Part shown: one piece after another, positions 1-17,616 of the stretch | Numbering within the stretch: the stretch's first letter is position 1 | Layout: each line of letters starts with the position of its first letter | Source: Thermococci archaeon | GTDB taxonomy: Archaea > Methanobacteriota_B > Thermococci > Thermococcales > Thermococcaceae | Direction: 5' to 3' | Assembly (NCBI GenBank): GCA_003663535.1 | Contig: QMUE01000002.1 | Coordinates: forward strand, 1 to 17,616 | DNA length: 17,616 nt | Made by a program: the position numbers and the translations under genes | Notes under the pieces: model-generated | What the model was told of the DNA's origin: nothing | Database searches by the model: none | Seen by the model: the letters and a program-made list of their open reading frames with translations, nothing else

Positions 1-238
1 CGTTCCTGCCTTGGACACAAAATTCTCAAAATAATATATGCCCGCAATTGTGGAGTCAACATTTGTTCCTTCTATCAAGATTATAAGATCCCCTTTGTGT
101 TCTATGGATTGAATGACAAAGAGGCCATTTTTTATATCCCACCAATCTTTCCCGGGCTGGGGATATGGGTATCCACTACGAGGGGATAACAAGCGTTTCA
201 TTATTTTTGTCAGCGTTTGTTTTAAAATTAGCGCCTAA
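1..238 (-). pseudogene. Frameshifted remnant of an S-layer-type C-terminal domain, cut by the window edge
   Basis: The minus strand just downstream of the 741-residue protein encodes a second, broken copy of that protein's last domain. One frame (238 to about 183) reads NFKTNADKNNETLVIPS, matching AFKVHVTANSLITPHS of the intact neighbour, and then hits a TAG. A second frame continues from about 177 to the edge with SGYPYPQPGKDWWDIKNGLF, VIQS, EGTNVDSTIAGIYYFENF, matching the neighbour's LWWDSKEGLFVIQT and EGTNEDSTLAGVHYF. The switch of frame inside one continuous homology, and the lack of the GGPxVN half of the domain, indicate a 5'-truncated, frameshifted pseudogene. An ATG at 201 could open the second frame, but it starts inside the fold. 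It begins within a few bases of the upstream stop codon, so a tandem duplication of the 3' end of that gene is the simplest origin. The rest lies outside the window. Confidence 0.7.
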
Positions 239-242
239 TTAG

Positions 243-2465
243 TTATTTTCCCGTTTCAAGAATTACAATCTTGTCTCCTGGACTAAATCCATTCGAATCT
301 TCCATCGAGCCCCGAACAACGTCAAGAACCTTGCCATCGGTCTCTTCCCATCTCCCAACGACATAACTAATATTCACATATTTTTCAGGTGAGGGAAGAA
401 CCTCTTCCAGGAAGTAGTGAACTCCCGCCAATGTGGAGTCCTCGTTAGTACCTTCTATAGCTACTACGGATCGCCCCATATACTCAAGAGTCTGAATAAC
501 AAAGAGGCCTTCTTTAGAATCCCACCAAAGATTTGGGATAGGGACGTGGTATACTGAGTGGGGAGTTATAAGAGAGTTGGCTGTAACATGAACCTTAAAG
601 GCTTCAATCTTCTCAAGCTCGCGGATGCAGGGATTCACAGCCGGGCCACCAATGAGGATAACCCCCTTGCCCAGAACGATACTCTCGATTGGGCACTTCC
701 CATCTGGGGAAAGTGAAATCAATGATGAGCCTGGAAACAGGGCGGTGATGTAAGAGTTAAACTGGACCCTTCCACCAGCTAGAAGAACTGGGGGTTCTCC
801 CTTCTGAAGGAAAGCCCTGGCAAAGCCGTCGATGCTCAGAAAGCCCACCTTATCCCAGTAGCGGTAAAAGCTGTCAGAGACCATTGAAAAGTCGTTGTTT
901 GGCTCTAGGTTGAGCTCTAGGGTTCCTCCACAGGCTCTTAGGAGGTTGTCTTCGACGAAGCGGGAATAAACCGAGCCGTCCAGCCTCGGAACATAGGTTC
1001 CTCTCTCTTGACACAGGCTCACGAGTTCCTCGCTCCACACTGCGTCATAGTTGTAAACTCCTGGAACCCTCGCGGTGTTCAAGATGCTCAAAGTTATGAG
1101 CAGTCCTATCAGCAATGGGACGAGCAACCTGGAACTCTTACCAACGAGATCAACTTCGGATCTAACTACACCTGCTACAATGGGGGCAGCCAATGGCACG
1201 AAGTACTGAAGCGCCCTGATTAACCAGTTGTGGAAGCCCCAGATACTGTTTCCATGAGGCATAAAGAAGGACAGTACTAGGAACAAGAGCGCTAGGGGCA
1301 GCATCATAAGGGACAAAAGTTCAAAAGTATCCAAACTGGCGCGGCGAAGGGCAGTAAGGATACCCCTAAGGTAGAAGATAGCAAAGGCTATGTTGCCGGC
1401 TTGAAACAGGAGGAGCACCAAGAGAGAGCCGCGGTAGACCCAATTGTAGAGGCTAGAGCCAAGGTGGAACTGAACATAGAGGATGCCCAGAAGCCCGGCC
1501 AACATGACAATACTGAGCAACGGGCTCCTTTTTTCGATTCCCTCAGAAAAACGTGCTAAGGTTCGCTGGAACAACTGCATGAGGAGGGGTAATCTTCCAC
1601 GGAACCGAAGGAGAACAAGGTACCATAAGGGTAGACCAACTAACAGTGAAACCACGGAGAGCAGGGAAAAGCTGAACACAGATAGACTAAGCCCAGTCAC
1701 ACTGTTGAAGAGCCATACCATGTTCTTCAATATCGCGCCAGAGTACGGAAAGACCAAGAAAGCCACCCACGAGAGTGCTATGGTGAACGCGAAGAAGCGG
1801 TAGGTCACAATGGCCGTATTGTCATCGAAGACTAGCACCCTTACGGAGATGTACAAAACTAGAAGAACGGAGTACACAATAAAGGAAAGAACGTGGGAAA
1901 ACACTAAGAGGAGATAGAGGATAAGTACTAAGAGAATCTCAGCTTTCTTTCTAATCCCTCTGAGGAGGGACACAGCCAAGAGAAAGCCTACTAAAAGGCC
2001 CACCTGTTGGGGGCGAACCTGAATCACGGACCAAATGTAAAGTGGGCTCATGAAGAGAATGAAAACTGCTGACATTGAGTGTTTAGGGGACAGTCCCAGC
2101 CTTCGGTATGAGAAGAAAAGAACAAGAGTATATACAAGGACCATTGCAATGGAGTACCACACCACTTCATCGACGGGGGTGGCAAAGAAAGGCCTGAAGA
2201 TGTGGAGGGAAAAGGGTGTAACGTATCCCGACACTATCGACGAAAGATACCAATGAGGGTCTCCGAGGAGGGATACATAGTAGGACTCGTCTATGGTTGT
2301 AAAGTATCTACCAAACCCCGTTCTGATATAGAAGACAACCACACTACCAAAGAGCAGGGTAGAAAAAAGGCCAAGCCTGTGGTCAAGCCTCTTCTCTAAA
2401 ATCAGTAGCGAGGCGATGATAGACGCTGCCAGGACGAGAATTATTCCCATCGCTATGCTATCCAT
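243..2465 (-). CDS. GT-C-like polytopic membrane protein fused to an S-layer-type C-terminal domain
   Basis: About 740 residues. The first ~470 are a run of roughly a dozen hydrophobic segments. An acidic pair in the first outer loop (IDESYY, D60/E61 counting from the upstream GTG), a later VRPQQ, and FSHVLSF resemble the GT-C superfamily of lipid-linked-sugar glycosyltransferases (GT39/PMT-like); this is a fold-level inference. From about 475 on the chain is soluble and probably outside the cell. Residues 607-741 are clearly related to the C-terminus of the S-layer-like protein at 8495..12730: GGPAVNP, LWWDSKEGLFVIQT, EGTNEDSTLAGVHYF, YVVGRWEET and a final DSNGFSPGDKI. The ATG overlaps the TGA of the upstream gene (TGATG); an in-frame GTG at 2468 is an alternative start. 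Translational coupling with the upstream gene is likely. Oligosaccharyltransferase (AglB/Stt3) was considered, but no WWDYG motif is present. The fusion and coding status are well supported; enzymatic activity is inferred. Confidence 0.85.
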   Translation of the reverse strand: MDSIAMGIILVLAASIIASLLILEKRLDHRLGLFSTLLFGSVVVFYIRTGFGRYFTTIDESYYVSLLGDPHWYLSSIVSGYVTPFSLHIFRPFFATPVDEVVWYSIAMVLVYTLVLFFSYRRLGLSPKHSMSAVFILFMSPLYIWSVIQVRPQQVGLLVGFLLAVSLLRGIRKKAEILLVLILYLLLVFSHVLSFIVYSVLLVLYISVRVLVFDDNTAIVTYRFFAFTIALSWVAFLVFPYSGAILKNMVWLFNSVTGLSLSVFSFSLLSVVSLLVGLPLWYLVLLRFRGRLPLLMQLFQRTLARFSEGIEKRSPLLSIVMLAGLLGILYVQFHLGSSLYNWVYRGSLLVLLLFQAGNIAFAIFYLRGILTALRRASLDTFELLSLMMLPLALLFLVLSFFMPHGNSIWGFHNWLIRALQYFVPLAAPIVAGVVRSEVDLVGKSSRLLVPLLIGLLITLSILNTARVPGVYNYDAVWSEELVSLCQERGTYVPRLDGSVYSRFVEDNLLRACGGTLELNLEPNNDFSMVSDSFYRYWDKVGFLSIDGFARAFLQKGEPPVLLAGGRVQFNSYITALFPGSSLISLSPDGKCPIESIVLGKGVILIGGPAVNPCIRELEKIEAFKVHVTANSLITPHSVYHVPIPNLWWDSKEGLFVIQTLEYMGRSVVAIEGTNEDSTLAGVHYFLEEVLPSPEKYVNISYVVGRWEETDGKVLDVVRGSMEDSNGFSPGDKIVILETGK

Positions 2466-3169
2466 CACCTTACCCCCAGGGGGATGCGCCTGAGTATCTG
2501 GTAGGATCTGTCGCTTGAAGTCTCGACAACGATCCTAATGACGACTGAATTAGGTACGTAAGTGAATTGAGATTCATGTACAGTCACCTTATACTTCTCG
2601 TCCCCTAGTGCGGTTATCTTCAGCCTGTACTCTGTCACTTTAACGCCGGAATCGCCTTTCTCCGTGATGGTTCTCACGAGTGTGACGTTTCTCGTGGTGT
2701 TGAGGAGGAAGCTCAGGTTGGTGGGGCCAGAATAGGCGGGCAGTCTGTGACCGGGAGACGTGACACTGACGTTCGTGACGTTGTCGAGGGGCTCTCCAAG
2801 TATGGCCCATACCCCACTAAGGTCGTATGTGGTGTTCCTCTCCCACAGCACCACACGTCTGTAGGTAGCATCTTGCACCGAGAACGTGAAGGAGAGCTGG
2901 GCAACCTTGTTCGGGGCAAGGGACACGTTGCCATCATTTATGACCGTGTCATTGAGGTATACTGTATAGCGATAATTCTCAGTTGAACGCTCGTGGGACT
3001 CTATGATGAAGGTTATTGTGTAGGTAACGTTGGGAACGATGTAATCGGGGACGGTGGCGTTGTCGAAATAGACCTTGGAAAAGCCGGGGGCAACCTGGGA
3101 ATTTACCACAACGATAAGCCCAGTTAGGATGATCACCAATACCGCGAACAGATAATAATCTCTTCTCAT
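2465..3169 (-). CDS. Membrane-anchored extracytoplasmic beta-sandwich protein (DUF1616-like)
   Basis: 234 residues. One N-terminal hydrophobic segment (about 6-24, YLFAVLVIILTGLIVVVNS) serves as signal or anchor. A Thr/Val/Asn-rich exposed region follows, with many N-x-S/T sequons (for example NVTYT, NDTV, NVSL, NTTY, NLSF) and alternating hydrophobic residues typical of Ig-like beta-strands. The stretch YRYTVYLNDTVINDGNVSLA resembles archaeal DUF1616-type surface domains; this is recognition by eye and not firm. It is the first gene of a two-gene operon: its TGA overlaps the start of the GT-C/S-layer fusion, so the two products are probably made together and may interact on the outer face of the membrane. 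The ATG is preceded by a GGGGGAT sequence about 4 nt upstream. No enzymatic motif is visible. Confidence 0.8.
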   Translation of the reverse strand: MRRDYYLFAVLVIILTGLIVVVNSQVAPGFSKVYFDNATVPDYIVPNVTYTITFIIESHERSTENYRYTVYLNDTVINDGNVSLAPNKVAQLSFTFSVQDATYRRVVLWERNTTYDLSGVWAILGEPLDNVTNVSVTSPGHRLPAYSGPTNLSFLLNTTRNVTLVRTITEKGDSGVKVTEYRLKITALGDEKYKVTVHESQFTYVPNSVVIRIVVETSSDRSYQILRRIPLGVR

Positions 3170-3452: not shown

Positions 3453-4451
3453 ATGATCCAGAAGAGAGATACAACAGTCTTGATCCATAGATTCAAGGAA
3501 TATGGATTAAAAGGGCTCGTGGAGATAACTAAGCGTAACAATGGGGAGTGGATATTCCTTGAAGAATGGGATCATCTTATTATATTAGATGACTGCAGGT
3601 ATGATGTGTTCAGAGAAGAATTTAAGAGAAGAGGACTGCCTGGGACACTAAAACCCAAAAATTCCCTAGGATCGTGGACAGGAGAGTTTTTAAGAAGGAA
3701 CTTTCGTGAAAAACATCCCGAAATAGTTTTCGTGAGTGCTAATCCTTTTTCAGATGTCTATTTAAAAAACAAGTTTTACAAGCTTATATCTGTCTGGAAA
3801 ACAGAATGGGATGATAGGTATCAGACAGTTCCCCCAGGAGCAGTTTACAGAGCAGCCCTAAAAGCCGCAAGAAGGCATCCCGACAAAAAGCTTGTAATTC
3901 ATTTTCTTCAGCCTCATCATCCATACTTCTCACTTAATTTTAGAGATAAAACCATGACTCTCATCCGAGAATCAATTGAGGGTGGGCACCCAGAGTTAGA
4001 CACGATTAAAGAGGAACCAATAAACACCCTATATCTATCCCCCATATATGGACAGTTCCACATTAAACATCTAATATGGGCATATAAAGAGAACCTCCGC
4101 TTAGTCATCCCCTACGTGGAGCTGTTGCTTCATAAATTGGCTGGGAAAACCGTCGTAACATCAGACCACGGGGAGTTATTTGGAGAAAATGTACTCAAGT
4201 TTATTCCCATAAAAGTCTACGGCCATGGAATCGGCAGAAATCCCAACCTAGTAACGGTACCATGGTGGGTTGTAACAGATGAAGACAGAGAAGATCTGAG
4301 GCCCATTAAGGATATAAAAAAGGAGATAGCCACCATAGAATCAAGGTTCGGTTTAACAGAGAGATCTCGGGAAAAGAGACTTCTCAAAAAAGCAATATCC
4401 CGCTTAAGACACAAGAAGAACTTAACAATGCTTCCGGAGAGCATGACGTGA
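3453..4451 (+). CDS. Sulfatase-like (alkaline phosphatase superfamily) enzyme
   Basis: 332 residues, no signal peptide, and the only convincing plus-strand gene. Superfamily landmarks are in order: IILDDCRYD at about 43-51, where a DD-C-R motif provides metal ligands and the nucleophile position; HFLQPHHPY at 150-158; TSDHGE at 236-241; and YGHG at 256-259, both in the region of the second metal site. Known members hydrolyse or transfer sulfate, phosphoethanolamine or phosphoglycerol groups on glycans and lipids; related archaeal genes sit in polysaccharide clusters. The classical CxPxR formylglycine motif of true type I sulfatases is absent, so a sulfatase activity is unproven and phosphotransferase or phosphatase activity is equally possible. 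The tail after ~285 is Lys/Arg-rich. It is A/T-rich like the two genes that follow, converges on the GT39-like gene, and probably has a leaderless mRNA. Confidence 0.85.
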   Translation: MIQKRDTTVLIHRFKEYGLKGLVEITKRNNGEWIFLEEWDHLIILDDCRYDVFREEFKRRGLPGTLKPKNSLGSWTGEFLRRNFREKHPEIVFVSANPFSDVYLKNKFYKLISVWKTEWDDRYQTVPPGAVYRAALKAARRHPDKKLVIHFLQPHHPYFSLNFRDKTMTLIRESIEGGHPELDTIKEEPINTLYLSPIYGQFHIKHLIWAYKENLRLVIPYVELLLHKLAGKTVVTSDHGELFGENVLKFIPIKVYGHGIGRNPNLVTVPWWVVTDEDREDLRPIKDIKKEIATIESRFGLTERSREKRLLKKAISRLRHKKNLTMLPESMT

Positions 4452-4628: not shown

Positions 4629-6671
4629 TTAACTTGCCGAAGCCTGATCTAGCTGTAGTGCATTGTGACAGCTATTGTTCGTCTCATGCGTCTTGCTTAT
4701 TGAAATATTAATCACCTGAGTTTTATCAAAATTGATAGTCCCATTAAACGTAAATTTAGCATGATCTGTCTCCGAAAGATTAAACAAGTACATACCATCC
4801 ATAACGATTCCCTCATAGTGCGAAAGCAGATAACATGCCAGCTCAAAATACCTGGGATCATTGAACAACGCATCATTTGCAATAAAATATTTGTAGTTTC
4901 CATCTGACGAGTTCATTTTAGATAAAAAGTCTTGGAGTGTCCAAACAAGTTCAACCCGGCGTTTTGAGTAAAAAGTTGAAGAATAACTGTGAATTCCGGT
5001 TCCGGGAATTACTAAAATACCTTCCTCCGGCGTCGTCAATTTCTCTATAATCAACCCCCATTGGTACTCATGAGGGTACTCCCAACTATCCTGGATATCC
5101 ACAACATAAATAGCCTGGGATGCAAACAGGACAAGAACAAGAGACACAGCTAAAACTCGTGGTTTAAGTTTAATTCCATATCCTTTTATTTCAATCCAGA
5201 ACAACAAAATAAGTGCAGCCACTGTTAAAAGCAATAAACCCCCATACTTGGGGACGTACGGGTATATTAGATTTTTTAAGTACCCTAAAAGCAATATTGA
5301 AGGCGCAAAGATTATCGAATGAAGTCTAAGAGCATTAAGATCTAACATACTCTCCTTAATTAAATCTGAAGATAAAGCCCAAAACAAGAGGTAGCTAAAG
5401 ATTAGAGCTAGCAATATTAGCGGTGCTAACCAAAGGGTATTCCCCATATTATAAACAACTTCAAGCACCATTAAAGTAAATATTCCGCCTACAAATCCAA
5501 ATAACAGAACTGCAAAGAACGTTACAGAGAAGGGAACATTAGACCCCCACTCTTTCCAAGTACTAGGTAATTTGGAAAAAAGTATAATTCCCCGACCTGC
5601 TGAAAGCACAATGCTAGGAACCAGCTGATAAAGCCAAAAGTCGTGTATCCAAGCTCCCTGTTTAAACACTAGCAAACTGACAATTCCCTGAACAAAAAGG
5701 GGCAGTATATAGGAATCCTTCTTAGGCCTCCATACCAAAAAATAGGTTCCCCATACCAGAGTGAAGATAAGAGTTATTGATGTAAACAAATTTAGAGATC
5801 TCTTTAGTTCTAACACCAAAAACTGAAACATTGTAAAATCATAATGAGAACCCGGACGGTCGAATTTGGAGTAAACCTTAATGCCAGACCTAGTGAGAAA
5901 CCCTTGATATAACTCCACAATCTGCTCATAACCCCCAACAAAATACACGAACCCAACATAAGCTAAAAACGCTAGAAATGCAGTACTCAAGAGAATCAGT
6001 ATCACTTTACGGTTCTTATTGAATCCAAAGAGTATTGCATGGAGGATAATGCCTAGTACAATAATATAAGCCTGCCAATCAAACCAAGCTCCAACAAACA
6101 GGGACAAGCTCATGTATAGAAGGTGCTTAGGTTCTCGTGATTCTGACCAGAGGATATAGAAATATAACGTCGAGAGAATAAAGGGCATTGTGGAGTAGTC
6201 TGGTGCGGTAATTCTGTCATAATACGCCGTAAGAGGCATTAATGCGAAGAGAATCGAGGAAACAATAGCAGTTTTTTCTCCCCACAACTTCTTTGAAATC
6301 TTGTAAATCAAAAAGAGTGTTAACATTGACAATACAATCTCAGCTAATCTAACGCTAGCTTCTGTGATTCCAAAGATCCTGAAGAATAGTGATATCCAAA
6401 TACTAGTAAGCGGTGGATGGTGAAAGTAATATTCAAAATTGCCATCAGTTACGTAGTAAGGGGTCGAAACTAATCCCAGCTTGGTAGTCATATACCCATA
6501 CCAAATGTAATTCCTAGCATATACTGCATACTGACAGTTAATGTACTTGAAATATTCCGTAAATGGCCTGTTAATGTCCCTGATCCTAACTACAAACGCC
6601 AATATTGCTACACTTACAAACAAAACCGTTGTTACTGAAACCTTGCTACTCCGTGATTTAAGTTTCATCAC
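4629..6671 (-). CDS. GT39/PMT-ArnT-like membrane glycosyltransferase
   Basis: 680 residues with about a dozen transmembrane segments. Family features are: a first membrane helix followed by RIRDINRPFTEYFKY and CQYAVYARNYIWYG; the HHPPL motif at 84-88; FRIFGITEASVRLAEIVLS; and LMPLTAYYDRITAPDYSTM, all typical of dolichol-phosphate-sugar-using protein or lipid glycosyltransferases. The usual acidic D/E pair of the first outer loop is not obvious (E39 is a candidate). A soluble domain after ~520 (IEKLTTPEEGILVIPGTGIH) is probably extracytoplasmic. A GGAGGGG ribosome binding site lies 5 nt before the GTG at 6671; the ATG at 6668 is the alternative. The last ~16 residues (NNSCHNALQLDQASAS) look atypical. 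It likely transfers a lipid-linked sugar onto a surface acceptor. No WWDYG motif, so not an oligosaccharyltransferase. Confidence 0.85.
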   Translation of the reverse strand: MMKLKSRSSKVSVTTVLFVSVAILAFVVRIRDINRPFTEYFKYINCQYAVYARNYIWYGYMTTKLGLVSTPYYVTDGNFEYYFHHPPLTSIWISLFFRIFGITEASVRLAEIVLSMLTLFLIYKISKKLWGEKTAIVSSILFALMPLTAYYDRITAPDYSTMPFILSTLYFYILWSESREPKHLLYMSLSLFVGAWFDWQAYIIVLGIILHAILFGFNKNRKVILILLSTAFLAFLAYVGFVYFVGGYEQIVELYQGFLTRSGIKVYSKFDRPGSHYDFTMFQFLVLELKRSLNLFTSITLIFTLVWGTYFLVWRPKKDSYILPLFVQGIVSLLVFKQGAWIHDFWLYQLVPSIVLSAGRGIILFSKLPSTWKEWGSNVPFSVTFFAVLLFGFVGGIFTLMVLEVVYNMGNTLWLAPLILLALIFSYLLFWALSSDLIKESMLDLNALRLHSIIFAPSILLLGYLKNLIYPYVPKYGGLLLLTVAALILLFWIEIKGYGIKLKPRVLAVSLVLVLFASQAIYVVDIQDSWEYPHEYQWGLIIEKLTTPEEGILVIPGTGIHSYSSTFYSKRRVELVWTLQDFLSKMNSSDGNYKYFIANDALFNDPRYFELACYLLSHYEGIVMDGMYLFNLSETDHAKFTFNGTINFDKTQVINISISKTHETNNSCHNALQLDQASAS

Positions 6672-6916: not shown

Positions 6917-7972
6917 TTATTGGAGCGGAGTCCAAACAAATCTCTTACTAAGGATATAATTCATTGGAAAACCTACTAAAATACCTATCAACTGGGCTAT
7001 GATTGACGAACTAAACACCTTGTAGTAGATTATAACAGACGTTATCCACTGTGCTAACAAGGCCACTGCTGACGATGTATGGAACTTTAAGAATTTACGC
7101 CACCAGTCTTTACCCCTTCCCCTAAATGTCCATAAATCATTAAGTATAAAGTTGTTTACGACGGAAGCCTCTATACCTACTGCTGAAGCAAACACATGAG
7201 GGAAGTTGAAATATCTGAGAAGTGTTAGGACACCCAAGTTTACTACTACACCACTAGCCCCAACAAGTGCAAACCTGACATACTCAGGAGATAAATTTAG
7301 CACATGTACCATGTAGTTAACTATCTCACTAGTGTCGAGCTTGGATTCACCTTTAAACCTAACGCCAAACGTGTACGGAACCTCACAAATCTTCCTCACA
7401 TTCCCCCTAACAAGTATCTCTAAGAGGATTTTAAAGCCTCGAGGATTCATGCTAACTCCTTCAACGACATCTCGTCTGAAGATAAAGAAACCCGACATGG
7501 GATCCTTAACAGTCCTCACCTTTGGAAGCAACACTCTTGTTATCAGTGTAGCTCCTTTGGAAATTAACCTTCTTAGGAAGGACCATTCACTCATAGATCC
7601 TCCTTCAACATACCGTGATGCAATTATGACATCGCAATTCTGCAATTTTTCAAGCATCTTTGGCAATACTTCGGGCGGGTATTGAAGGTCAGCACCCATC
7701 ACGGCTACGAATTCGCCCTCTGCTATTTTTAACCCGTCCAAAACGGCAGATGATAGTCCTAATTTACCAAGTCTCTTGAGTACCTTTACAGGGTATAACT
7801 CCGATAACTTCTCAGCATACTCTGCAGTACCATCAGGCGAATTATCGTCAACGATAATAACCTCATAGGACACTCCATAGACTCTTAAAGCACTATCTAT
7901 CCTCTTCAATAGTTCCTCCAAATTGGCCCTTTCATTATACGTAGGCACAATAATGCTTAGGACAACACTCAT
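6917..7972 (-). CDS. Polyprenol-phosphate mannosyltransferase (DPMS-like GT2 with GtrA-type membrane domain)
   Basis: 351 residues, matching the architecture and length of the Pyrococcus furiosus dolichol-phosphate-mannose synthase. A cytosolic GT-A catalytic domain (about 1-230) has SIIVPTYNERANL, VDDNSPDGT (41-49), GADLQYPPE (93-101), ASRYVEGG and KDPMSGFF. Four transmembrane helices of GtrA type follow from about 232 (FALVGASGVVVNLGVL, VVNNFILNDLWTF). The expected role is GDP-mannose plus dolichyl phosphate giving dolichyl-phosphate mannose for outer-face glycosyltransferases such as the GT39-like neighbour. The DxD-type site reads G-A-D-L-Q: the first acidic position is glycine (G93), whereas the canonical motif is DAD. 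The sugar specificity is therefore less certain. An AGAGGTG ribosome binding site lies 7 nt before the ATG. It has its own promoter and terminator, so it is probably monocistronic. Confidence 0.9.
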   Translation of the reverse strand: MSVVLSIIVPTYNERANLEELLKRIDSALRVYGVSYEVIIVDDNSPDGTAEYAEKLSELYPVKVLKRLGKLGLSSAVLDGLKIAEGEFVAVMGADLQYPPEVLPKMLEKLQNCDVIIASRYVEGGSMSEWSFLRRLISKGATLITRVLLPKVRTVKDPMSGFFIFRRDVVEGVSMNPRGFKILLEILVRGNVRKICEVPYTFGVRFKGESKLDTSEIVNYMVHVLNLSPEYVRFALVGASGVVVNLGVLTLLRYFNFPHVFASAVGIEASVVNNFILNDLWTFRGRGKDWWRKFLKFHTSSAVALLAQWITSVIIYYKVFSSSIIAQLIGILVGFPMNYILSKRFVWTPLQ

Positions 7973-8490: not shown

Positions 8491-8502
8491 GCTTTCAGCC
8501 TT
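8470..8502 (-). terminator. Terminator at the end of the S-layer-like gene
   Basis: AAGGCT (8488-8493), TTC loop, AGCCTT (8497-8502) is a perfect 6-bp inverted repeat spanning the TGA at 8495-8497. On the minus strand it is followed by tccaaactttcttttcttc, a pyrimidine/T-rich stretch. This is a good candidate for the transcription end of the large gene. Confidence 0.5.
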
Positions 8503-11500
8503 GGGCGACGGGAGTTATGCTGTCGCCCGAGCTGAACCCGCTAGTGTCTCCAAGGCTAGCGCCTGGGAGTTCATAGTCAGCTCCCGCCTCAGTGTCTTCC
8601 CAAAGGCCTACAATGTAGTTGACGCCACTGTAACTGTCAAGGTTCGGGTAGATTGTGTTGGCGAAGTAGTAGGCTCCGGCCGCAGTGCTGTCCATGTCAG
8701 TACCGTAGATTGTGACTACGAGAGCGCTAGTGTCCGGGTCCTCGAAGAGTTGGATGATGAAATAACCCTCTGTGGCGTTCCACCATGGTTTTGGAGGAGT
8801 CCAGGTGAAGTTACCCTCTAGAGTAACTATCGTGATGTTCTCGCCGACCACCATGTGAACTGGAGCAATGTCCTCGTAGTAGGCAGTAACGTCGTTAACG
8901 AGCGGTCCGCCAATGCTGATGACCACATCGTTGGCGGTCAGGTTGCCAAGCTCTGAGACAAAGTTCTCCGCGAACTTGAACTTCGGTGCAACACCACTGA
9001 GGGTTGGGGTAATGTACGGGACTGAAACTAGATAATCCATGCTAGTGTAATCCTTGAAGGTTATGTAAACGTTCTCAGCCGCCTGAACCCTGTCATCGTA
9101 CTCATCAATTGTTACGTGGAGCTTCTCTGTGGCGTTTACAGTAACGTTGAAGCCGTCGACCTTAATTACGTGCTCGCCTGCCTCTGTTATCTCCACGTTG
9201 AGGATAACGCTCTTCTCTTCGCCTACCTTGATCGTAACAGGGGTGCTGTTGGCAACTTTGCCGTCGAGGAATACCGTAACTGGGTAGTCAATTGCGTCGA
9301 GGTCGCCGGTGTTCTCGAGGGTTACGTTCACTGCGACGGTAAATGGAACGACTGTCTCCTCTGGGACATCGAATGTCACGTTCTTGACGGTTACGTTGTA
9401 TCCCTGCTTCCAGACGTAGACTGTGGTGTTTGTGCTATTCGTCTTGATACCATCAGTGTACTCGAGGACGATGTAGTACTTGCCGACCTGGTACTTGGTC
9501 TCGTTGGTCATGTTCACGAGCTCCTTGATGAGGCCCTTCTCCTCGACGTAGACGGTCTTGGTGAAGACCGGTTTCTTGGTTTCGTTGAGTATCTTGAGGG
9601 TAACTTCTGCATCGATACCGAGGTTGCTCTGGGCGGTTATGTTGAAGAGTCCCTCACCGAGCTTAACCCCGTAGAGTTCCTCGCCGCCGACAGTTACTTT
9701 TTCGAGGTTCTCTGGAGTGGGTTTCTGGAGGTCTGGTTTGTCTGTTATGGAAACCGTCCACTCGGGTGACTTTACTCCATTGTACTCGGCGGTAATCCAG
9801 ACGTCGCCGACATATCCGGCAAGTTTTGTCATGGAGTAGTTGTACTCAAAGGTTCCATCCTCTTTTACTGGCACACTGGTGATAGACTCTGAATCTCCCT
9901 TCCAGACGATTGATATATTCACGGTCCCACCGCTGGCGCCGTTAACCTTACCCTTGATAAGCATCTTTCCGTCGGGGTAGTACTCTGGGAGCTCCGTGGT
10001 GACGTTTACACCGCTCTCAACGTTAACCTGTATGTTTATGGTGCGGCCGTACTTGGCAATGGTATCATTAACTGTTATGTTGTGGACTCCCTTCGTGAGT
10101 TCAGCTCTCTCGTAGAGCGGGATGTAACCGACGAAGTAGTACCTTCCGTCCTCGCCCTGCTCCCATGTGACGTTGGCATAGTATGAGTAGCTGTCAATAA
10201 CCTCAGTGAGGTTGCTCTGGTTGAGAACCCTGAAGATTAAGTCTATCTTCTTCTCTCCCGGCGTGACGTAGGTGTATCCCTCAATCTTGAGCTTCTGTCC
10301 GAGGTAGATCGTGTCACCGTCCTTGAGGTTAGTGACCTCGGTCATGGTGTCGTTGAGCATCTCCACCTCAACCTTATCCCAAGCGTAGCCATCGGTCAGG
10401 TTGACGTCAAGCGGCAATTTGAACGGTAGCCATGTGTCTGGCGCGTTGGCGCTAGGATCTATCTCAATAGTCAGGTTCTTGTATCCAAAGGTGTCGTTGT
10501 ACACACCCACGACGGGTGGGCTGGCTTTCCAAGTCGCACCGGCGCCCACAAACTTGAGCTTGTAGTTGGCATTGCTGATGTTTGAGTGGGTCTGGGCGAG
10601 TATTACGAGCGTGTCTCCGAGGACGAGCTTGGGTGTGTATTTCATGATGGTTAGGTCATCCTTGACCTCGAGCGTGAACGTGGCTGGCGAGGTAACTGAC
10701 TCGGCGCTAGAAACGGTTATGTTGATCTCATATTTTCCGGCCTTCGTTGGATCATCTGTTCCAAATGTGACGTTCCACATCTTCGTGTGAGTGCTCTCGT
10801 TGAAGGCCGTGATGTTGACCATACCGAGTACAGTATTATTTGGTACGATCTTTATGTCATCAGGAGAGGTTGTGGTGACCTGTATTGTGGTGTTGAATCC
10901 GAGCCATATGCTGGCGGAGTCTTTGCTTAGAGTGACATTGTGTGGCATAACTTTGAAATCTTTGGTGATGTTAGTAATTCCATCGCTGACGACGAGGGTG
11001 TACGTACCGTTGGAGAGGTTGAAGTTAGTGAATATGTCTGATAAGTTAACTGCAATGTAGCCTGACTTGGCATTGTAGTGCGTTACGGGAACACTAGCAT
11101 TTGTGAAGTCACCAAGGGTGAAATTGTAGGTTCCACCATGGGTAACGGTTACGTTCACGAAGATGTCATCTCCTGGGTAGATCTTGTCATCTTTAAAGCC
11201 GTGGTATTTGTTGTAGACTGAGCTGAGCTCGGTTACCTCAATCTCATCAATGAACGTAACAGGGTCAGATGTGGCATTTGCAATAGTCTCATCGGAATCG
11301 TTGAAGAAGTATATCCTCACTTCGTATTCTCCGGGGCTGAGACTACTAGGCCACTTGCTAAGGTTGCTTGTTTCAAACACCCATGACTGCGGGATCTTTG
11401 ATACTAGCTTACTACTGCTGTTTATAACAGCTACATCTTTACCTGTTCCGACTGAAACTAGTGTGATGTTGTAAGATTTCGCAGTGTCATTGGTCACTAC

Positions 11501-12730
11501 GAAATCAATTCTCAGATCTTCTACTCCAAGGTAAACTGTGCTCTGATTCGCGGATACACTAGCCTCTGTATCCTTTGGAAGGACATAGGCGAGCGGCCAT
11601 TCGTAGGTTACGGTGCTTCCGTTAAGTTTGACAGTAACGTAACACATTCCCTCCGCGGTATCCGGAATAGTGACGTTCATCAACACCGTGCCGTTCTCGT
11701 CGGCGCTAAGGTCCATTATCAGGGTGGTGTTGTCACTAGAGACATTGAATATAGTCTTATTATACTTTGCATTTGTGGTGTTGAACTTAAATCCACTCGG
11801 GAGAGTTATGAAGACCTCGTATGGTTCAACAGAAGTTATGTTCGCCCAGATAGTGGCGTTAAAGAGCATTGGGGTGCCTGCAGTGTAGGCCCTAACATCC
11901 GGATCATAAACAGTGTTAGTAAGAGCCTCCACATCAAAGTCTCCGTGTGGATCCTGGTCTACAATGACCTTCTTTGCGTTCGTGTTTATAGTTCCCAGTA
12001 CAAAGGCACCGCTGGTGACGTCGAATGCCTGGTCAACCTTCTCAATAGTAACCGTTGCCGTGAGGTTGTAGAGCGTTTCGGTAGTGTCGTTTCCGTTAAC
12101 CTCGAAGGTGACTCCATCAATGTTGATGTTGGCATTCTTCTTCACCACATACGGGGCTGAACCTGTTATGTTGAGGACAACAACAAGGCTGTCTCCGACA
12201 AGCATATCCTTAGTATTTACTCTTATGCCACCAGTTAAGTTCCCTGGTAATTGAGTATTATTAACTGCCCCGCCAGTTATGCCTGACGTCAGTTCTATGA
12301 GTTGTAGCGTGTTCACGTAGAACTCCCTAATGCTCTGCCCATCAAAATTGTCCTGGACTATTAGGTATGCAGGTTCAGTGACGCTAATGTTTTTGAGTTT
12401 CTCTGTTGTTGAGAACTCAATTACATAATGCCAGGTTCCAGTTGCTTCGTCATACGTCGCTGTGGCATCGTTTAGTAACGAGATAGATGTAGTATCGCTT
12501 GTTGTATTAGTGTATGTGATATTAATTGCAGCTAATTTGCTGTATGGACTGTCAAATTCAATGGTGATGTTTTCTCCGAGGAGTATCACGCCATCTTCGT
12601 TGCCATCTGTGATAACTATGTTGGTTGCTGGAGAAGTTGCTGCCGTCACTGGAGCAAAAAAGCCGGGCAGTGCTGTTGCCAGCATTAAAACTGCTAGCAA
12701 CACGCTCAAATATTTATTCTGCCTATTCAT
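8495..12730 (-). CDS. Giant secreted S-layer-like surface glycoprotein
   Basis: 1411 residues. It has a clear signal peptide (MNRQNKYLSVLLAVLMLATA then LPGFFAPVTAA, cleavage near residue 30). A long array of beta-rich, Ig-like stretches follows, with dozens of N-x-S/T sequons and very few cysteines. The last ~200 residues form a distinct domain: NVYITFKDYTSMDYLVS, VVISIGGPLVND (GGPLVN at 1274-1279), PWWNATEGYFIIQLFE, YGTDMDSTAAGAYYF, YIVGLWEDT, then LGDTSGFSSGDSITPVAQG. This resembles the C-terminal S-layer region of Thermococcales/Methanococcales S-layer proteins (GGPxVN signature). There is no C-terminal membrane helix and no PGF-type archaeosortase signal, so retention is probably by lattice contacts. 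AGGTGA lies 6 nt before the ATG. Its G/C content and codon choice are visibly higher than in the A/T-rich genes on its left, as expected for a highly expressed resident gene. It may be the main S-layer protein or an accessory one, and is the likely acceptor of glycans made by the neighbours. Confidence 0.88.
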   Translation of the reverse strand: MNRQNKYLSVLLAVLMLATALPGFFAPVTAATSPATNIVITDGNEDGVILLGENITIEFDSPYSKLAAINITYTNTTSDTTSISLLNDATATYDEATGTWHYVIEFSTTEKLKNISVTEPAYLIVQDNFDGQSIREFYVNTLQLIELTSGITGGAVNNTQLPGNLTGGIRVNTKDMLVGDSLVVVLNITGSAPYVVKKNANINIDGVTFEVNGNDTTETLYNLTATVTIEKVDQAFDVTSGAFVLGTINTNAKKVIVDQDPHGDFDVEALTNTVYDPDVRAYTAGTPMLFNATIWANITSVEPYEVFITLPSGFKFNTTNAKYNKTIFNVSSDNTTLIMDLSADENGTVLMNVTIPDTAEGMCYVTVKLNGSTVTYEWPLAYVLPKDTEASVSANQSTVYLGVEDLRIDFVVTNDTAKSYNITLVSVGTGKDVAVINSSSKLVSKIPQSWVFETSNLSKWPSSLSPGEYEVRIYFFNDSDETIANATSDPVTFIDEIEVTELSSVYNKYHGFKDDKIYPGDDIFVNVTVTHGGTYNFTLGDFTNASVPVTHYNAKSGYIAVNLSDIFTNFNLSNGTYTLVVSDGITNITKDFKVMPHNVTLSKDSASIWLGFNTTIQVTTTSPDDIKIVPNNTVLGMVNITAFNESTHTKMWNVTFGTDDPTKAGKYEINITVSSAESVTSPATFTLEVKDDLTIMKYTPKLVLGDTLVILAQTHSNISNANYKLKFVGAGATWKASPPVVGVYNDTFGYKNLTIEIDPSANAPDTWLPFKLPLDVNLTDGYAWDKVEVEMLNDTMTEVTNLKDGDTIYLGQKLKIEGYTYVTPGEKKIDLIFRVLNQSNLTEVIDSYSYYANVTWEQGEDGRYYFVGYIPLYERAELTKGVHNITVNDTIAKYGRTINIQVNVESGVNVTTELPEYYPDGKMLIKGKVNGASGGTVNISIVWKGDSESITSVPVKEDGTFEYNYSMTKLAGYVGDVWITAEYNGVKSPEWTVSITDKPDLQKPTPENLEKVTVGGEELYGVKLGEGLFNITAQSNLGIDAEVTLKILNETKKPVFTKTVYVEEKGLIKELVNMTNETKYQVGKYYIVLEYTDGIKTNSTNTTVYVWKQGYNVTVKNVTFDVPEETVVPFTVAVNVTLENTGDLDAIDYPVTVFLDGKVANSTPVTIKVGEEKSVILNVEITEAGEHVIKVDGFNVTVNATEKLHVTIDEYDDRVQAAENVYITFKDYTSMDYLVSVPYITPTLSGVAPKFKFAENFVSELGNLTANDVVISIGGPLVNDVTAYYEDIAPVHMVVGENITIVTLEGNFTWTPPKPWWNATEGYFIIQLFEDPDTSALVVTIYGTDMDSTAAGAYYFANTIYPNLDSYSGVNYIVGLWEDTEAGADYELPGASLGDTSGFSSGDSITPVAQG

Positions 12731-13331: not shown

Positions 13332-14108
13332 CTAAGCGTGTTGCTCTTTCTTTTCTGGCTTTCTAGGAGGTTTAACACCCAAACTATACTGAACAAGCAT
13401 TATATTCGAAATAAAGTCCCAGAGCTGGTCTCTATCCATCGTTGAGGCCGCAGCGTAACTGACAATATACAGATTCATAATCGCCTCATCCCTCTGTCGC
13501 TTCAATTGCTCGGCAACCTCTTCAAGGAGGACCAGCTTCACATCCAAGGCCATAAGCTTCTTTCTGTATTTGATGATCTCTTGCGCTTCTTCTTTAGCAT
13601 GGAAAAGAGCGTTCAAGTACTCTCTAACAAAGTCAACAAAACTTTGCGGATTCTTGAACTCAGCTATTTTCGTGTAAAGCTCTTCTGGAGGAACTTTCGC
13701 AACCTGCATTGCTAAGAGTGTTGCATAGAAGCCGATCTCATTTAAAACATCTGCAAACCATGAAATCCGCTCCGTGACGTTTTGAACTATCCTGGCGTGG
13801 GACCTATCCAAAGCCTCGAGTGTTATTTTCCTCCCCGTACCTGCCTGCTGATAACCTAGTGTCTTTGGTTTCTTTTGCTTCTTAACATCCTCTTCTTTGA
13901 GATCTTTAGGCTTCCTTGCTTGATTCTTCAGCTCCTCTTTCAATTTCCAGCAGAACTCATTGAAGTGTTTTGGGAGGGAATAAGACTTGACCCTGCCCTT
14001 CATCCACTTCTGGAGCTTGAACCTGTCGTTAGTCTTATCATAACTCAAGCTCCAGCCATCGCTCACGAATTTTTCTATTTTTTCTTCACTCCACTCTATT
14101 TTCTTCAT
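13332..14108 (-). CDS. Conserved-looking unknown protein with basic N-terminus and coiled coil
   Basis: 258 residues, family not recognised. The N-terminal ~60 residues (GWSLSYDKTNDRFKLQKWMK, GRVKSYSLPKHF) are rich in Lys/Arg/aromatics, in a beta-hairpin-like pattern reminiscent of the small DNA-binding arms of integrases and other mobile-element proteins; this is only a resemblance. Residues 60-90 are a Lys-rich linker. A helical region follows (RISWFADVLNEIGFYATLLA, FVREYLNALFHAKEEAQEII), with a likely coiled coil at about 170-215 (KKLMALDVKLVLLEEVAEQL). The C-terminus is basic (PPRKPEKKEQHA). No signal peptide or clear membrane helix. The start is certain: a perfect GGAGGTGAT (14122-14114) lies 5 nt before the ATG. 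It stands alone among transposon-like debris, so a plasmid- or virus-derived origin is plausible but unproven. Confidence 0.7.
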   Translation of the reverse strand: MKKIEWSEEKIEKFVSDGWSLSYDKTNDRFKLQKWMKGRVKSYSLPKHFNEFCWKLKEELKNQARKPKDLKEEDVKKQKKPKTLGYQQAGTGRKITLEALDRSHARIVQNVTERISWFADVLNEIGFYATLLAMQVAKVPPEELYTKIAEFKNPQSFVDFVREYLNALFHAKEEAQEIIKYRKKLMALDVKLVLLEEVAEQLKRQRDEAIMNLYIVSYAAASTMDRDQLWDFISNIMLVQYSLGVKPPRKPEKKEQHA

Positions 14109-14520: not shown

Positions 14521-15648
14521 TTATTTTCGCTTGCTTATGGGGTTTGAGGGTGTTGTCACCCTGGGGGTTCTGGAAAACTTGTTATTTTTATCTAAGAAAC
14601 CACATATCTTGCGTCTGGCAATGTGGGAGAGCTTCTTTAAAGCCTTCGGGTTCTCCATCAACTCCCTCATGGCATTTGCAAGGGATTTTGGATCGAGATT
14701 TTTTAAAATCACACCGTTTTTCCCCTCATCTACCAGGAACTTGGCCCCCACGTAGGGGGACACAATTACCGGGACGCCAAATGCCAGGGCCTCAGCAACG
14801 ACCATTCCAAAGGATTCAAAAGAGGAGGGAAGAACAAGGAATCTGGCCTTTGAGTATATTTTCGAAAGCTTTTGATCTCCCAAACTGCCAAAAAAGTGAA
14901 CTTTCTCCATTATCCCCAGTTCTTTGGCCAGATTTTTGTATTCATCCACCATATCTCCCTCCCCAACCACCCAGAGTTCCCATTCCGGGAATTCTTTCAA
15001 AATCTCTGCAAAAGCCCTTATGAGAAGGTTTAAGTTCTTAAATCTGTGATATTTACCGAGCTGACCCACGAAGAGCACCGCGTTTTTTCTTCTGCAGGTC
15101 TTGGAAAGATCAAATTCCGTAACATCGAGCCTTGGATGGGAAATTCGGGGATTGTATCCTCTGCTTTTGAGATGCTCAAACACCGTCCCAGAAACGGCAA
15201 TTATTTCCGCTCCCCTGAGCGTTGCCCTCTCCAGAGTTGAGGAGTATATGCCGGCAACGAAGTCGAGCAGTTTGTCCCCCTTCTTAAGCCCCACGGTATG
15301 ATAGACTATTACTATGGGAATTCCTTTTAATTTGACAAAGAACGAAGCAACATCGGCTGCAAAGGGAACGGGAGTGTGGGCTATCACCACTTCGCTTTCC
15401 TTTACCATGTGGGCTGCCCTGAAGATGAACTTCAGACTCAGGGGGGTGTTTGATATTATTGCTCCCGGCTTAACGCGGTGGACGGTAATTCCGTTTATCT
15501 CTTCGGTTCTCTCGGCCCCTTTCGTCATGCAGAGCACTGTGACCTTCTCCTTCTCCGCCAGCTCTCGGGCCATATTAAAGGCATACCTCTCAAGCCCTCC
15601 CCCCTCGGGATAAAAGTATGGAGAAACAACGAGTATGTGCTTCCCCAT
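14521..15648 (-). CDS. GT4 family glycosyltransferase with abnormal C-terminus
   Basis: About 375 residues from the ATG at 15648. The N-terminal Rossmann domain has VVSPYFYPEGGGLERYAFNM (glycine-rich acceptor-side loop). The C-terminal GT-B domain has LFVGQLGKYHRFKNLNLLI, LWVVGEGD, and SSFESFGMVVAEALAFGVPV containing the E-x7-E nucleotide-sugar motif. It would transfer a sugar from a nucleotide donor to a lipid-linked glycan at the cytoplasmic face. The ATG overlaps the TGA of the upstream GT2 gene (TGATG), with GGAGG 7 nt upstream; the in-frame TTG at 15651 is less likely. After about KKLSHIARRK the sequence no longer looks like a GT4: instead of the usual W-containing last helix it has a 28-residue basic tail (ICGFLDKNNKFSRTPRVTTP then SNPISKRK). 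A 3' rearrangement is likely, so activity may be altered. Last gene of the operon. Confidence 0.88.
   Translation of the reverse strand: MGKHILVVSPYFYPEGGGLERYAFNMARELAEKEKVTVLCMTKGAERTEEINGITVHRVKPGAIISNTPLSLKFIFRAAHMVKESEVVIAHTPVPFAADVASFFVKLKGIPIVIVYHTVGLKKGDKLLDFVAGIYSSTLERATLRGAEIIAVSGTVFEHLKSRGYNPRISHPRLDVTEFDLSKTCRRKNAVLFVGQLGKYHRFKNLNLLIRAFAEILKEFPEWELWVVGEGDMVDEYKNLAKELGIMEKVHFFGSLGDQKLSKIYSKARFLVLPSSFESFGMVVAEALAFGVPVIVSPYVGAKFLVDEGKNGVILKNLDPKSLANAMRELMENPKALKKLSHIARRKICGFLDKNNKFSRTPRVTTPSNPISKRK
14547..14562 (-). repeat. Hairpin inside the abnormal GT4 tail
   Basis: AGGGTG (14547-14552), TTGT loop, CACCCT (14557-14562) is a perfect 6-bp inverted repeat within the part of the gene that no longer resembles GT4. 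It may belong to the foreign sequence that replaced the original 3' end. Confidence 0.4.
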
Positions 15649-16763
15649 CAAAGTTCCTCCTTAAGCATGTATATGCTCACAAAGAAGGAGAAGAACATCA
15701 CGGATATCCCCAGAGTTGTTAGGGTAAGCACCAGTACGGCCTCTCTGAGCATAAAGAGCTCTCCGTATCCGCTTGCCCTCCACTTCAAAAAAATGTACAG
15801 TCCAATTATTATGCCGATGAGGAACATTGACCCGCCGGCCATTAGGCCCTCCTCGAGAACAGAATACCTCATGAAAAATCTGGTTAATTTATTGGGTTTT
15901 TCAAGATCCTCCTTGGTAGCATAGACCTTGGCAGAAATGCCGAGTGACAACACCTGAAAGCCAAGAAGCGTCAGGGCGCTCCCAAGTACTAGGGTATGCA
16001 ACCTCTCGGGTTTGATGAGATAGGTGTACCCCATGAGGAGAACACCCATACCTAAGAGTAATATTCCGGGAAGAAGGAAGAGATAGGAGGGTGAATAGAG
16101 TAACATAAGTCTCAGGTGCCGCCACCCATCCCTAAAGGAGCTGAGCTTTGATTCCCCTATCCTTTTGTGGTATCTTATGGGAACCTCTTCTATTCTCAGC
16201 CCCGCTTTAATAGCCTCGATCACCATTTCACTGGCAAACTCCATGCCTTTACATTTTAGGGGCAGTTTTTCCAGGGCTTCCTTCGTTATGGCCCTCATCC
16301 CGCAGTGGGCATCGCTTATATTTGCCTTAAAAAGGAAGTTGAGTATGTGGGTAAGGAGGGGATTCCCAATATGCCTGTGGAGCCGAGGCATGGCCCCCTC
16401 GTCAATCCTGCCCCTAAGCCTGCTACCCATGACAAAATCCGCACGTCCGTTTAGTATCGGTTCTAAAATTTTTGGGATGTCCTCCGGGTCGTAACTCCCG
16501 TCGGGATCCATCATAACTATAATATTACCCCTAGCATTCTTAAATCCAAGAATATAAGCATCACCATATCCCTTGCCTTCCTGCCTTATAACCCTCGCTC
16601 CGAACTCTTGGGAAATTTTAGGAGTATTGTCCCTGCTTTTATCAACAACTATGATTTCATAAGACACTCCCATTTTACTTAAAACTTCTTTTATTTTGGG
16701 CAGAATGGCCTTTATTGCCTCTTCCTCGTCCATAGTCGGCAACACAACTGACACATCAACCAT
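15648..16763 (-). CDS. GT2 polyprenyl-phosphate hexosyltransferase with C-terminal membrane domain
   Basis: 371 residues. The GT-A domain (1-225) has SVVLPTMDEEEAI, EIIVVDKSRDNTP (41-48), a canonical metal site VMMDPDGSYDPEDIP (D86-x-D88), DFVMGSRLRGRIDEGAMP, and SDAHCGMRAI. About four membrane helices follow (from SYLFLLPGILLLGMGVLLMG to the end). This is the widespread archaeal GT2 type that charges dolichyl phosphate with glucose or another hexose in N-glycan assembly; the exact sugar cannot be read from sequence. It overlaps the preceding GT4 gene by 8 nt and the following GT4 by 1 nt, so the three are surely co-transcribed and probably translationally coupled. A purine-rich GGGGGAT precedes the ATG. 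Unlike the DPMS-like protein at 6917..7972, its DxD is intact. Confidence 0.9.
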   Translation of the reverse strand: MVDVSVVLPTMDEEEAIKAILPKIKEVLSKMGVSYEIIVVDKSRDNTPKISQEFGARVIRQEGKGYGDAYILGFKNARGNIIVMMDPDGSYDPEDIPKILEPILNGRADFVMGSRLRGRIDEGAMPRLHRHIGNPLLTHILNFLFKANISDAHCGMRAITKEALEKLPLKCKGMEFASEMVIEAIKAGLRIEEVPIRYHKRIGESKLSSFRDGWRHLRLMLLYSPSYLFLLPGILLLGMGVLLMGYTYLIKPERLHTLVLGSALTLLGFQVLSLGISAKVYATKEDLEKPNKLTRFFMRYSVLEEGLMAGGSMFLIGIIIGLYIFLKWRASGYGELFMLREAVLVLTLTTLGISVMFFSFFVSIYMLKEEL

Positions 16764-17616
16764 TTAAAATCCCCCGATAGTATTTCTCCAAGTCCTCAAC
16801 GATTAAATCCCAATCATAACTCCTCGCCATGCTTTTGGCCTTTTCCCCCAATCGCTTCTCATCTTCGTATGCAGTAATCAGATGTTCTGCAAAGTCTTTT
16901 TCGTTGTTTTTACTCACAAAACCATTTTTCCATGGTACTATTAAATCTTTCGATGCGTTTAAAGGATGATCCACAACCACGGCCGGAATCCCAGAGGCAT
17001 TAGCCTCTAGAACGACCATCCCGAACCCCTCTCTCCCCGAAGGAAATGCAAAAACTTTAGAGGATTTCATCACCGAAATTACCTCTTCATGGTTCTCCAA
17101 AAACCCCAAAAACTCGACATTGGAGGAAATTCCGAGATCTTTTGCTAAAAATTCAAGGTTCTCTCTCTCAGGCCCATCTCCGATTATACCCAGACTTGTA
17201 TCCGGATACTCTTTTTTAACATGAGCAAAGCTCCTCAAAAGAAAATCAACGTTTTTGTGCTTAATTAACCTGCCAACAAAGAGGAAGTCAAAGCCCCTCT
17301 CCCCCCTCTTTATTTCATCAATTTCTTTAAAGTCAATGCCATTTGGAACCAAAGCGGCAAAAACTCCCATCTCCTTTAGATAATTTTTAGTGGTCTTGGA
17401 GACGGCTATATGGTGTTTCGTAAGTTTTGTTAATCCCCTCTCTATTTGCAATCCAAGGATTCCAAAATCTCCAAGATAATCCCTCCAGTAGTTGCCCCAA
17501 AACTCATGCCATGTTATGACAAAACTTGTACCCTTTGGAAGACCCAACCGGGAGGTGTAGCACGATAAATACGGAAACTCCTGGCAATCAATCACGTCAA
17601 AATCTCTTAGAGTTCC
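16756..17616 (-). CDS. GT4 family glycosyltransferase, N-terminus outside the window
   Basis: At least 286 residues are in the window; the frame is open to the right edge (GTLRDFDVIDCQEFPYLS), so the GTG at 17595 is not the true start and the first part of the N-terminal Rossmann domain is missing. Visible motifs are TKHHIAVSKTTKNYLKEMG, VPNGIDFKEID, DFLFVGRLIKHKNVDFLL, LGIIGDGPERENLEFLA, and FPSGREGFGMVVLEANASGI with the E-x7-E motif. The C-terminus is normal for GT4 (YDWDLIVEDLEKYYRGILNG), a useful contrast with the defective end of the sister gene at 14521..15648. It probably adds a sugar to a lipid-linked oligosaccharide in the cytoplasm. First visible gene of the operon; its promoter lies beyond the window. 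Confidence 0.9.
   Translation of the reverse strand, partial: GTLRDFDVIDCQEFPYLSCYTSRLGLPKGTSFVITWHEFWGNYWRDYLGDFGILGLQIERGLTKLTKHHIAVSKTTKNYLKEMGVFAALVPNGIDFKEIDEIKRGERGFDFLFVGRLIKHKNVDFLLRSFAHVKKEYPDTSLGIIGDGPERENLEFLAKDLGISSNVEFLGFLENHEEVISVMKSSKVFAFPSGREGFGMVVLEANASGIPAVVVDHPLNASKDLIVPWKNGFVSKNNEKDFAEHLITAYEDEKRLGEKAKSMARSYDWDLIVEDLEKYYRGILNG

Follow-up and report, generated by a model that had tools for sequence, protein, structure and literature searches.

We describe a fusion gene in a 17,616-nucleotide stretch of a Thermococci archaeon genome (assembly GCA_003663535.1, contig QMUE01000002.1; hereafter the window, which is contig C2 of a 300-contig genome, 77.8% complete). Its product joins a predicted GT-C-fold membrane protein to a C-terminal surface-layer (S-layer)-anchor-like domain. 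The fusion belongs to a real, conserved family that is apparently undescribed in the open-licence literature; as in the initial annotation of this DNA, which knew of no such system, we found no described fusion of a glycosyltransferase with an S-layer domain there. Our preferred reading, held tentatively and just short of what we would call an even chance, is that the protein is an extracytoplasmic, lipid-phosphate-sugar-dependent GT-C-fold glycosyltransferase, docked on its glycoprotein acceptor by way of an anchor domain common to the two. Its architecture, predicted fold, conservation, co-occurrence and gene neighbourhood come directly from computation; its topology, catalysis, donor, acceptor and heterodimer docking we infer. 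The fusion gene and its large partner are laid out as follows.

243..2468, minus strand: fusion gene with a GTG start, encoding a GT-C-fold membrane protein of 741 residues that ends in an S-layer-anchor-like domain
1029..2468, minus strand: polytopic GT-C-fold membrane part, residues 1-480, an extra N-terminal helix followed by the GT-C core (AlphaFold2 (AF2) model)
2277..2294, minus strand: IDESYY motif, residues 59-64, which a GT-C topology would place in the first outer loop; D60 and E61 are candidate catalytic acids
246..839, minus strand: S-layer-anchor-like alpha/beta domain with C-terminal extension, residues 544-741, presumably on the outer face
8495..12730, minus strand: large partner, a 1411-residue surface protein with a signal-peptide-like start (by eye) and 68 N-X-S/T sequons
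8498..9085, minus strand: C-terminal domain of the partner, of the same family as the fusion tail

The codon after the GTG is an ATG, which matches the boundary at 2465 given initially and yields 740 residues, as in the relative P0001. As the initial annotation had observed, the N-terminal part is polytopic and bears IDESYY, and the C-terminus is shared with the 1411-residue protein (residues 598-737, 37% identity, E 4e-21). Named relatives, from Thermococcus siculi, T. onnurineus (TON_1826) and T. camini, are annotated as hypothetical or of function unknown. Among 94 Thermococcaceae genomes the fusion proved to be a conserved family: two of the 21 matches to the membrane part were cut at contig edges, and the other 19 (19/19) all carried the tail. 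In-frame stops were reported in three genomes (G046, G056 and G131). Whole-database protein searches, each of which scored only the ~8000 candidates sharing most words, gave the full-length relatives P0001-P0019, all tailed, and a fragment, P0020.

By profile-to-profile alignment (hhalign), the fusion tails matched the tails of the partners at E 1.4e-38 and the C-terminal end of the canonical S-layer protein (10 proteins) at E 3.9e-6, probability 87. In a direct profile search the window protein scored 12.1 bits for PF05124 (S_layer_C), below the cut-off of 23.9. PF05124 was the sole recurrent Pfam match of the family (10/20 members at E 1, best 2.5e-6), and the relatives P0002 and P0003 carry a precomputed PF05124 annotation. 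The same family is found in the canonical ~620-residue S-layer protein of Thermococcales, where the domain is split between both ends. The fold of the tail agrees with that of the S-layer anchoring domain crystallised from Methanococcus voltae (PDB 9FSA), which is described as a dimeric anchor (PMC11410804). The tail and the partners share a C-terminal extension that none of the canonical S-layer proteins compared showed at its ends. Conserved cysteines (C592 and C614 in 19/20 relatives, C486 in 16/20 and C513 in 15/20) are consistent with an outward-facing tail. A tree built from 35 tails separated the 14 fusion tails from the rest at one branch (89/90, not starred), so that a single fusion event is the simplest reading; this tree gave long-branch warnings and one row of odd letter make-up.

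Three further points concern this domain. Oligosaccharyltransferases have a WWDxG motif; the WW(N/D) of the tail was likened to it, and the likeness was not used, as the motif belongs to the anchor domain and is common to the partners. PF05124 matches reach 27 per genome in G061-G081, which belong to the same class, indicating that the domain is widely used outside Thermococcaceae. It is also possible that the S-layer anchor fold (in the window at 246-839 and 8498-9085, both on the minus strand), the BcsB domain and the N-terminal domains of GH84, GH67 and GH115 glycoside hydrolases (GH) have a common origin.

The AF2 model of the whole chain had a confidence score (pLDDT) of 85, and structure searches predicted a GT-C fold for residues ~26-510, closest to STT3/AglB, ALG12, ArnT and PMT. 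The best fold matches were STT3/AglB chains, and VIA matches mostly spanned 26 to ~510, ending before the tail. In the model, D60 and E61 directly follow the first core helix, which places an acidic residue in the predicted first outer loop, as in GT-C glycosyltransferases. In alignment A2 both are invariant in 14/14 sequences, one of which is unfused and 21% identical, and the other invariant positions include Y64, W146, R152, P153, Q154, H192, S195, Q333, N359, N414 and R418. Besides D60/E61, the 14 aligned sequences have no invariant or near-invariant Asp or Glu in the membrane part. The unfused homologue is a protein of archaeon GW2011_AR10 whose flanking genes are both GT4-type by Pfam; used as a query in the same kind of search, it matched itself and one distant relative. 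Judged from the alignment, the invariant residues look like a putative active site that has been kept.

The membrane part was found in 20/94 genomes and the terminal domain in 24/94, in a domain search that also detects fusion tails. Each of the 20 genomes with the membrane part encodes the terminal domain in some further frame besides the fusion, 70/94 have neither, and 4/94 (G059, G060, G106 and G125) have the terminal domain alone; among these four, G059 and G125 contain small tail pieces, perhaps fusion remnants or a cut fusion. The co-occurrence has a Fisher p of 8e-17, a statistic that ignores shared ancestry and physical linkage. A scan of genome contigs, limited by its search patterns, gave 6 loci only. 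We compared 14 context loci, the window included, and four more, of which L065 and L066 are near-identical; L062, cut before its upstream region, was not counted. A partner with the same terminal domain lies upstream of the fusion in 18/18 loci, one to six genes away, and is 836 to 2933 residues long. L062 sits in a metagenome-assembled genome labelled Thermotogaceae and is probably a stray Thermococcales contig.

The 1411-residue partner ends with the anchor-type domain and has no C-terminal hydrophobic helix (by eye). Its 68 sequons compare with 18.7 +/- 3.7 in shuffled sequences, and the enrichment was strong in 14/14 partners tested, with at most 1/1000 shuffles as high, whereas 7/10 canonical S-layer proteins showed no enrichment and 3/10 were enriched. 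Given this excess, heavy N-glycosylation of the partners is likely. According to PMC5744192, many Thermococcales commonly have a double S-layer; that the partners form part of such a layer is speculation on our part. The genome of the window holds a further partner-type domain, in a 1083-residue frame (G000:C50:7071-7433).

In the mechanism that we propose, a GT2-type enzyme would load a sugar onto polyprenyl (dolichyl) phosphate, and this lipid carrier would then be flipped across the membrane. The membrane part of the fusion would accept this sugar and, using D60/E61 in its first outer loop as catalytic acids, pass it on to its one dedicated client, the large sequon-rich surface protein encoded in the locus, either onto the glycans of that protein or directly onto Ser/Thr. 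At the membrane the tail would pair, anchor to anchor, with the partner, and such docking would keep the acceptor at the active site. Docking is suggested because the outer domain is of the same kind as the terminal domain of the presumed acceptor and is related to a dimerising domain. A bolder version, which we consider somewhat unlikely, is that of a client-locked glycosyltransferase wearing its substrate's anchor domain, in which the same membrane protein glycosylates, and perhaps holds, a giant surface glycoprotein in an accessory second layer on the Thermococcales cell surface.

Several results weigh against a docking glycosyltransferase. Foldseek TM-scores to the GT-C hits were only 0.2-0.4, mostly with a large root-mean-square deviation over the whole chain. 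The membrane part matched no curated GT-C family in Pfam (0/20 members at E 1) or, with the window protein only, in NCBIfam. Its profile found no relative among PDB sequences (one weak match, E 0.37, was taken as chance), and hhalign gave no signal against local alignments of PMT_2 (F24), F25 and STT3-like (F17) proteins, which hold 3-4 sequences each. The GT-C-like N-terminus of the initial annotation is supported by the predicted fold but not by a match to a curated profile. The kinship of the tail to S-layer proteins is supported by the 9FSA fold and by hhalign; for PF05124, the window protein scores below the cut-off and 10/20 members match at E 1. The anchor fold is also common to BcsB and to the N-terminal domains of GH84/GH67/GH115 enzymes. 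The domain match of the partner is partial in L037-L039 (scores 38-48), and the model of the partner's terminal domain had a pLDDT of 63, making its fold matches weaker support. The idea of an enzyme tied to its acceptor by a lattice-type domain is backed by the shared domain and the linkage to the partner, but not by similarity specific to its own partner: this was 0.2705, compared to 0.2730 +/- 0.004 for others (1413/2000 shuffles as high), and there is therefore no sequence sign of specific pairing. A mirror-tree test gave r 0.68 (0/2000 permutations), which linked inheritance can explain.

The main rival to a glycosyltransferase is a pure membrane tether, in which the GT-C part would now be (mainly) a membrane anchor and the tail would heterodimerise with the partner's anchor domain, holding the partner on the cell. 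The shared terminal domain, the strict co-occurrence and the dimeric anchoring described for 9FSA would all suit a tether, as would a partner that ends with this domain and has no evident membrane anchor. Nevertheless, we consider it unlikely, since the DE, RPQ, H192 and N/R residues are invariant in 14/14 sequences, one of them unfused among GT4 genes, which argues for a kept active site. In addition, a complete polytopic enzyme fold would be a costly anchor, and the four genomes noted above have partner-type domains but no GT-C part, while extra copies of such domains lie away from it. The protein might instead be a glycosyltransferase whose outer domain is merely structural or glycan-binding, like that of BcsB or the N-terminal domains of glycoside hydrolases, with no contact to an S-layer or partner. 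The wider occurrence of the fold would allow this, but the closest sequence kin of the tail are the partner and the canonical S-layer protein, PF05124 is its sole recurrent Pfam match, and the fusion is strictly linked to the partner; we judge such an accessory domain to be improbable.

A second, client-specific oligosaccharyltransferase, a relative of STT3/AglB that moves a whole lipid-linked glycan, is in our view very improbable. The best fold matches point toward it, and the locus mostly lies near an STT3 match: the nearest was 6.9-18.8 kb from the fusion in 11/12 genomes with both on one contig. In G018, the one exception, a protein ~5 kb away falls into a cluster with STT3-like proteins but itself gives only sub-threshold STT3/AglB core matches; in G056 the fusion and the STT3 match are on different contigs. 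However, PF02516 (STT3) matched 0/20 fusion members at E 1. Oligosaccharyltransferases carry a second acidic motif and a loop-5 Glu; because D60/E61 are the sole invariant acids of the membrane part, both appear to be lacking, and the protein is unlike a metal-dependent oligosaccharyltransferase. Furthermore, a PF02516 match is already present in 13/14 genomes searched, 12 of them over the cut-off and that of G053 below it; none was found in the window's own genome.

Compared with known systems, a glycosyltransferase of the kind we favour has an archaeal analogue in AglS of Haloferax volcanii, for which we know of no S-layer-type tail. AglS adds mannose to the S-layer N-glycan (PMC4973528). 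Multi-component transmembrane glycosylation systems, built of a GT-A enzyme, a GtrA flippase and a GT-C enzyme, resemble the parts found here, a GT2 with GtrA and GT-C proteins, although the fusion, unlike the GT-C parts of those systems, matches no Pfam GT-C family. In the passages of PMC8035078 drawn on here, the acceptors of these systems are polymers of the cell wall, mention of an S-layer anchor domain is absent, and large GT-C enzymes such as AftD bear outer carbohydrate-binding domains thought to bind the acceptor. What is new here is an outer domain of the same kind as the terminal domain of the presumed acceptor. Like STT3/AglB, the fusion has a GT-C core followed by a C-terminal outer domain; it differs in its lack of a PF02516 match, in its one invariant acidic site and in fold matches that stop before the tail. 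The tail is a sequence and fold relative of PF05124 and 9FSA, but is carried on a polytopic enzyme-like protein and has the extension common to the partners. The VARTIG modules of Thermococcales are likewise variable loci with a large immunoglobulin (Ig)-type surface protein (PMC8416519). Since 31 VARTIG Ig proteins are described there as ending in DNNxxxGG and the partners end in an S-layer-type domain, identification of the partners as VARTIG proteins was set aside.

Two questions that look open bear on these loci: how surface proteins of Thermococcales that lack an evident membrane helix stay attached to the cell, and by what means extracytoplasmic GT-C enzymes locate their acceptors. Whether smaller GT-C enzymes require extra proteins for acceptor recognition is left open in the cited passages of PMC8035078. 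A conserved GT-C core fused to an S-layer-type anchor, near a large protein with the same domain, makes both questions testable.

The remaining features of the window are listed below; GT4 and GT2 names were given by Pfam in the window and elsewhere by clustering with window proteins.

1..198, minus strand: tail piece of a second fusion paralogue, directly downstream of the fusion gene, GT-C part missing, cut by the contig end
2465..3169, minus strand: 234-residue protein that starts with a helix (by eye) and has a region weakly resembling the C-part of DUF1616; 4-base overlap with the fusion gene
3453..4451, plus strand: conserved neighbour with no Pfam match; SDHGELFGE (by eye)
4629..6671, minus strand: separate PMT_2 GT-C glycosyltransferase without tail (PF13231, 4.9e-18)
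6917..7972, minus strand: GT2 with GtrA/DPMS membrane domain (PF00535, 7.7e-33; PF04138, 7.5e-29)
14521..15651, minus strand: GT4-type glycosyltransferase, conserved neighbour (PF00534, 4.7e-40; PF13439, 5.9e-18)
15648..16763, minus strand: GT2 glycosyltransferase, conserved neighbour (PF00535, 2.5e-27)
16756..17616, minus strand: GT4-type glycosyltransferase, cut at the contig end (PF00534, 5.6e-41)

The usual gene order is GT4, GT2, GT4, sometimes an alkaline-phosphatase-like gene, the partner, sometimes the 234-residue protein, and the fusion, with variations. The product of 6917..7972 is possibly a polyprenyl-phosphate-sugar synthase with a flippase-like part. That of 3453..4451 looks by eye like an alkaline-phosphatase-superfamily enzyme, and might modify surface glycans. 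The 234-residue protein is present in 9/14 context loci; PMC5898192 lists pfam07760 (DUF1616) proteins among predicted S-layer proteins, as membrane-associated and bearing an Ig-like domain. A 258-residue open reading frame (13332-14108, minus strand), situated between the partner and glycosyltransferase genes, had no convincing family match in Pfam or NCBIfam. The tail piece at 1-198 is 96.9% identical to the paralogue P0017 over 64 residues, and is either a recombination scar or a contig-end chimera. Finally, camelysin/M73-type genes, which we take to be TasA-like, adjoin the fusion operon at L033:12291-12893, L035:14730-15326, L036:12156-12749 and L062:4623-5048; the first matched PF12389, and the others were assigned by clustering or by BLAST to its cluster.
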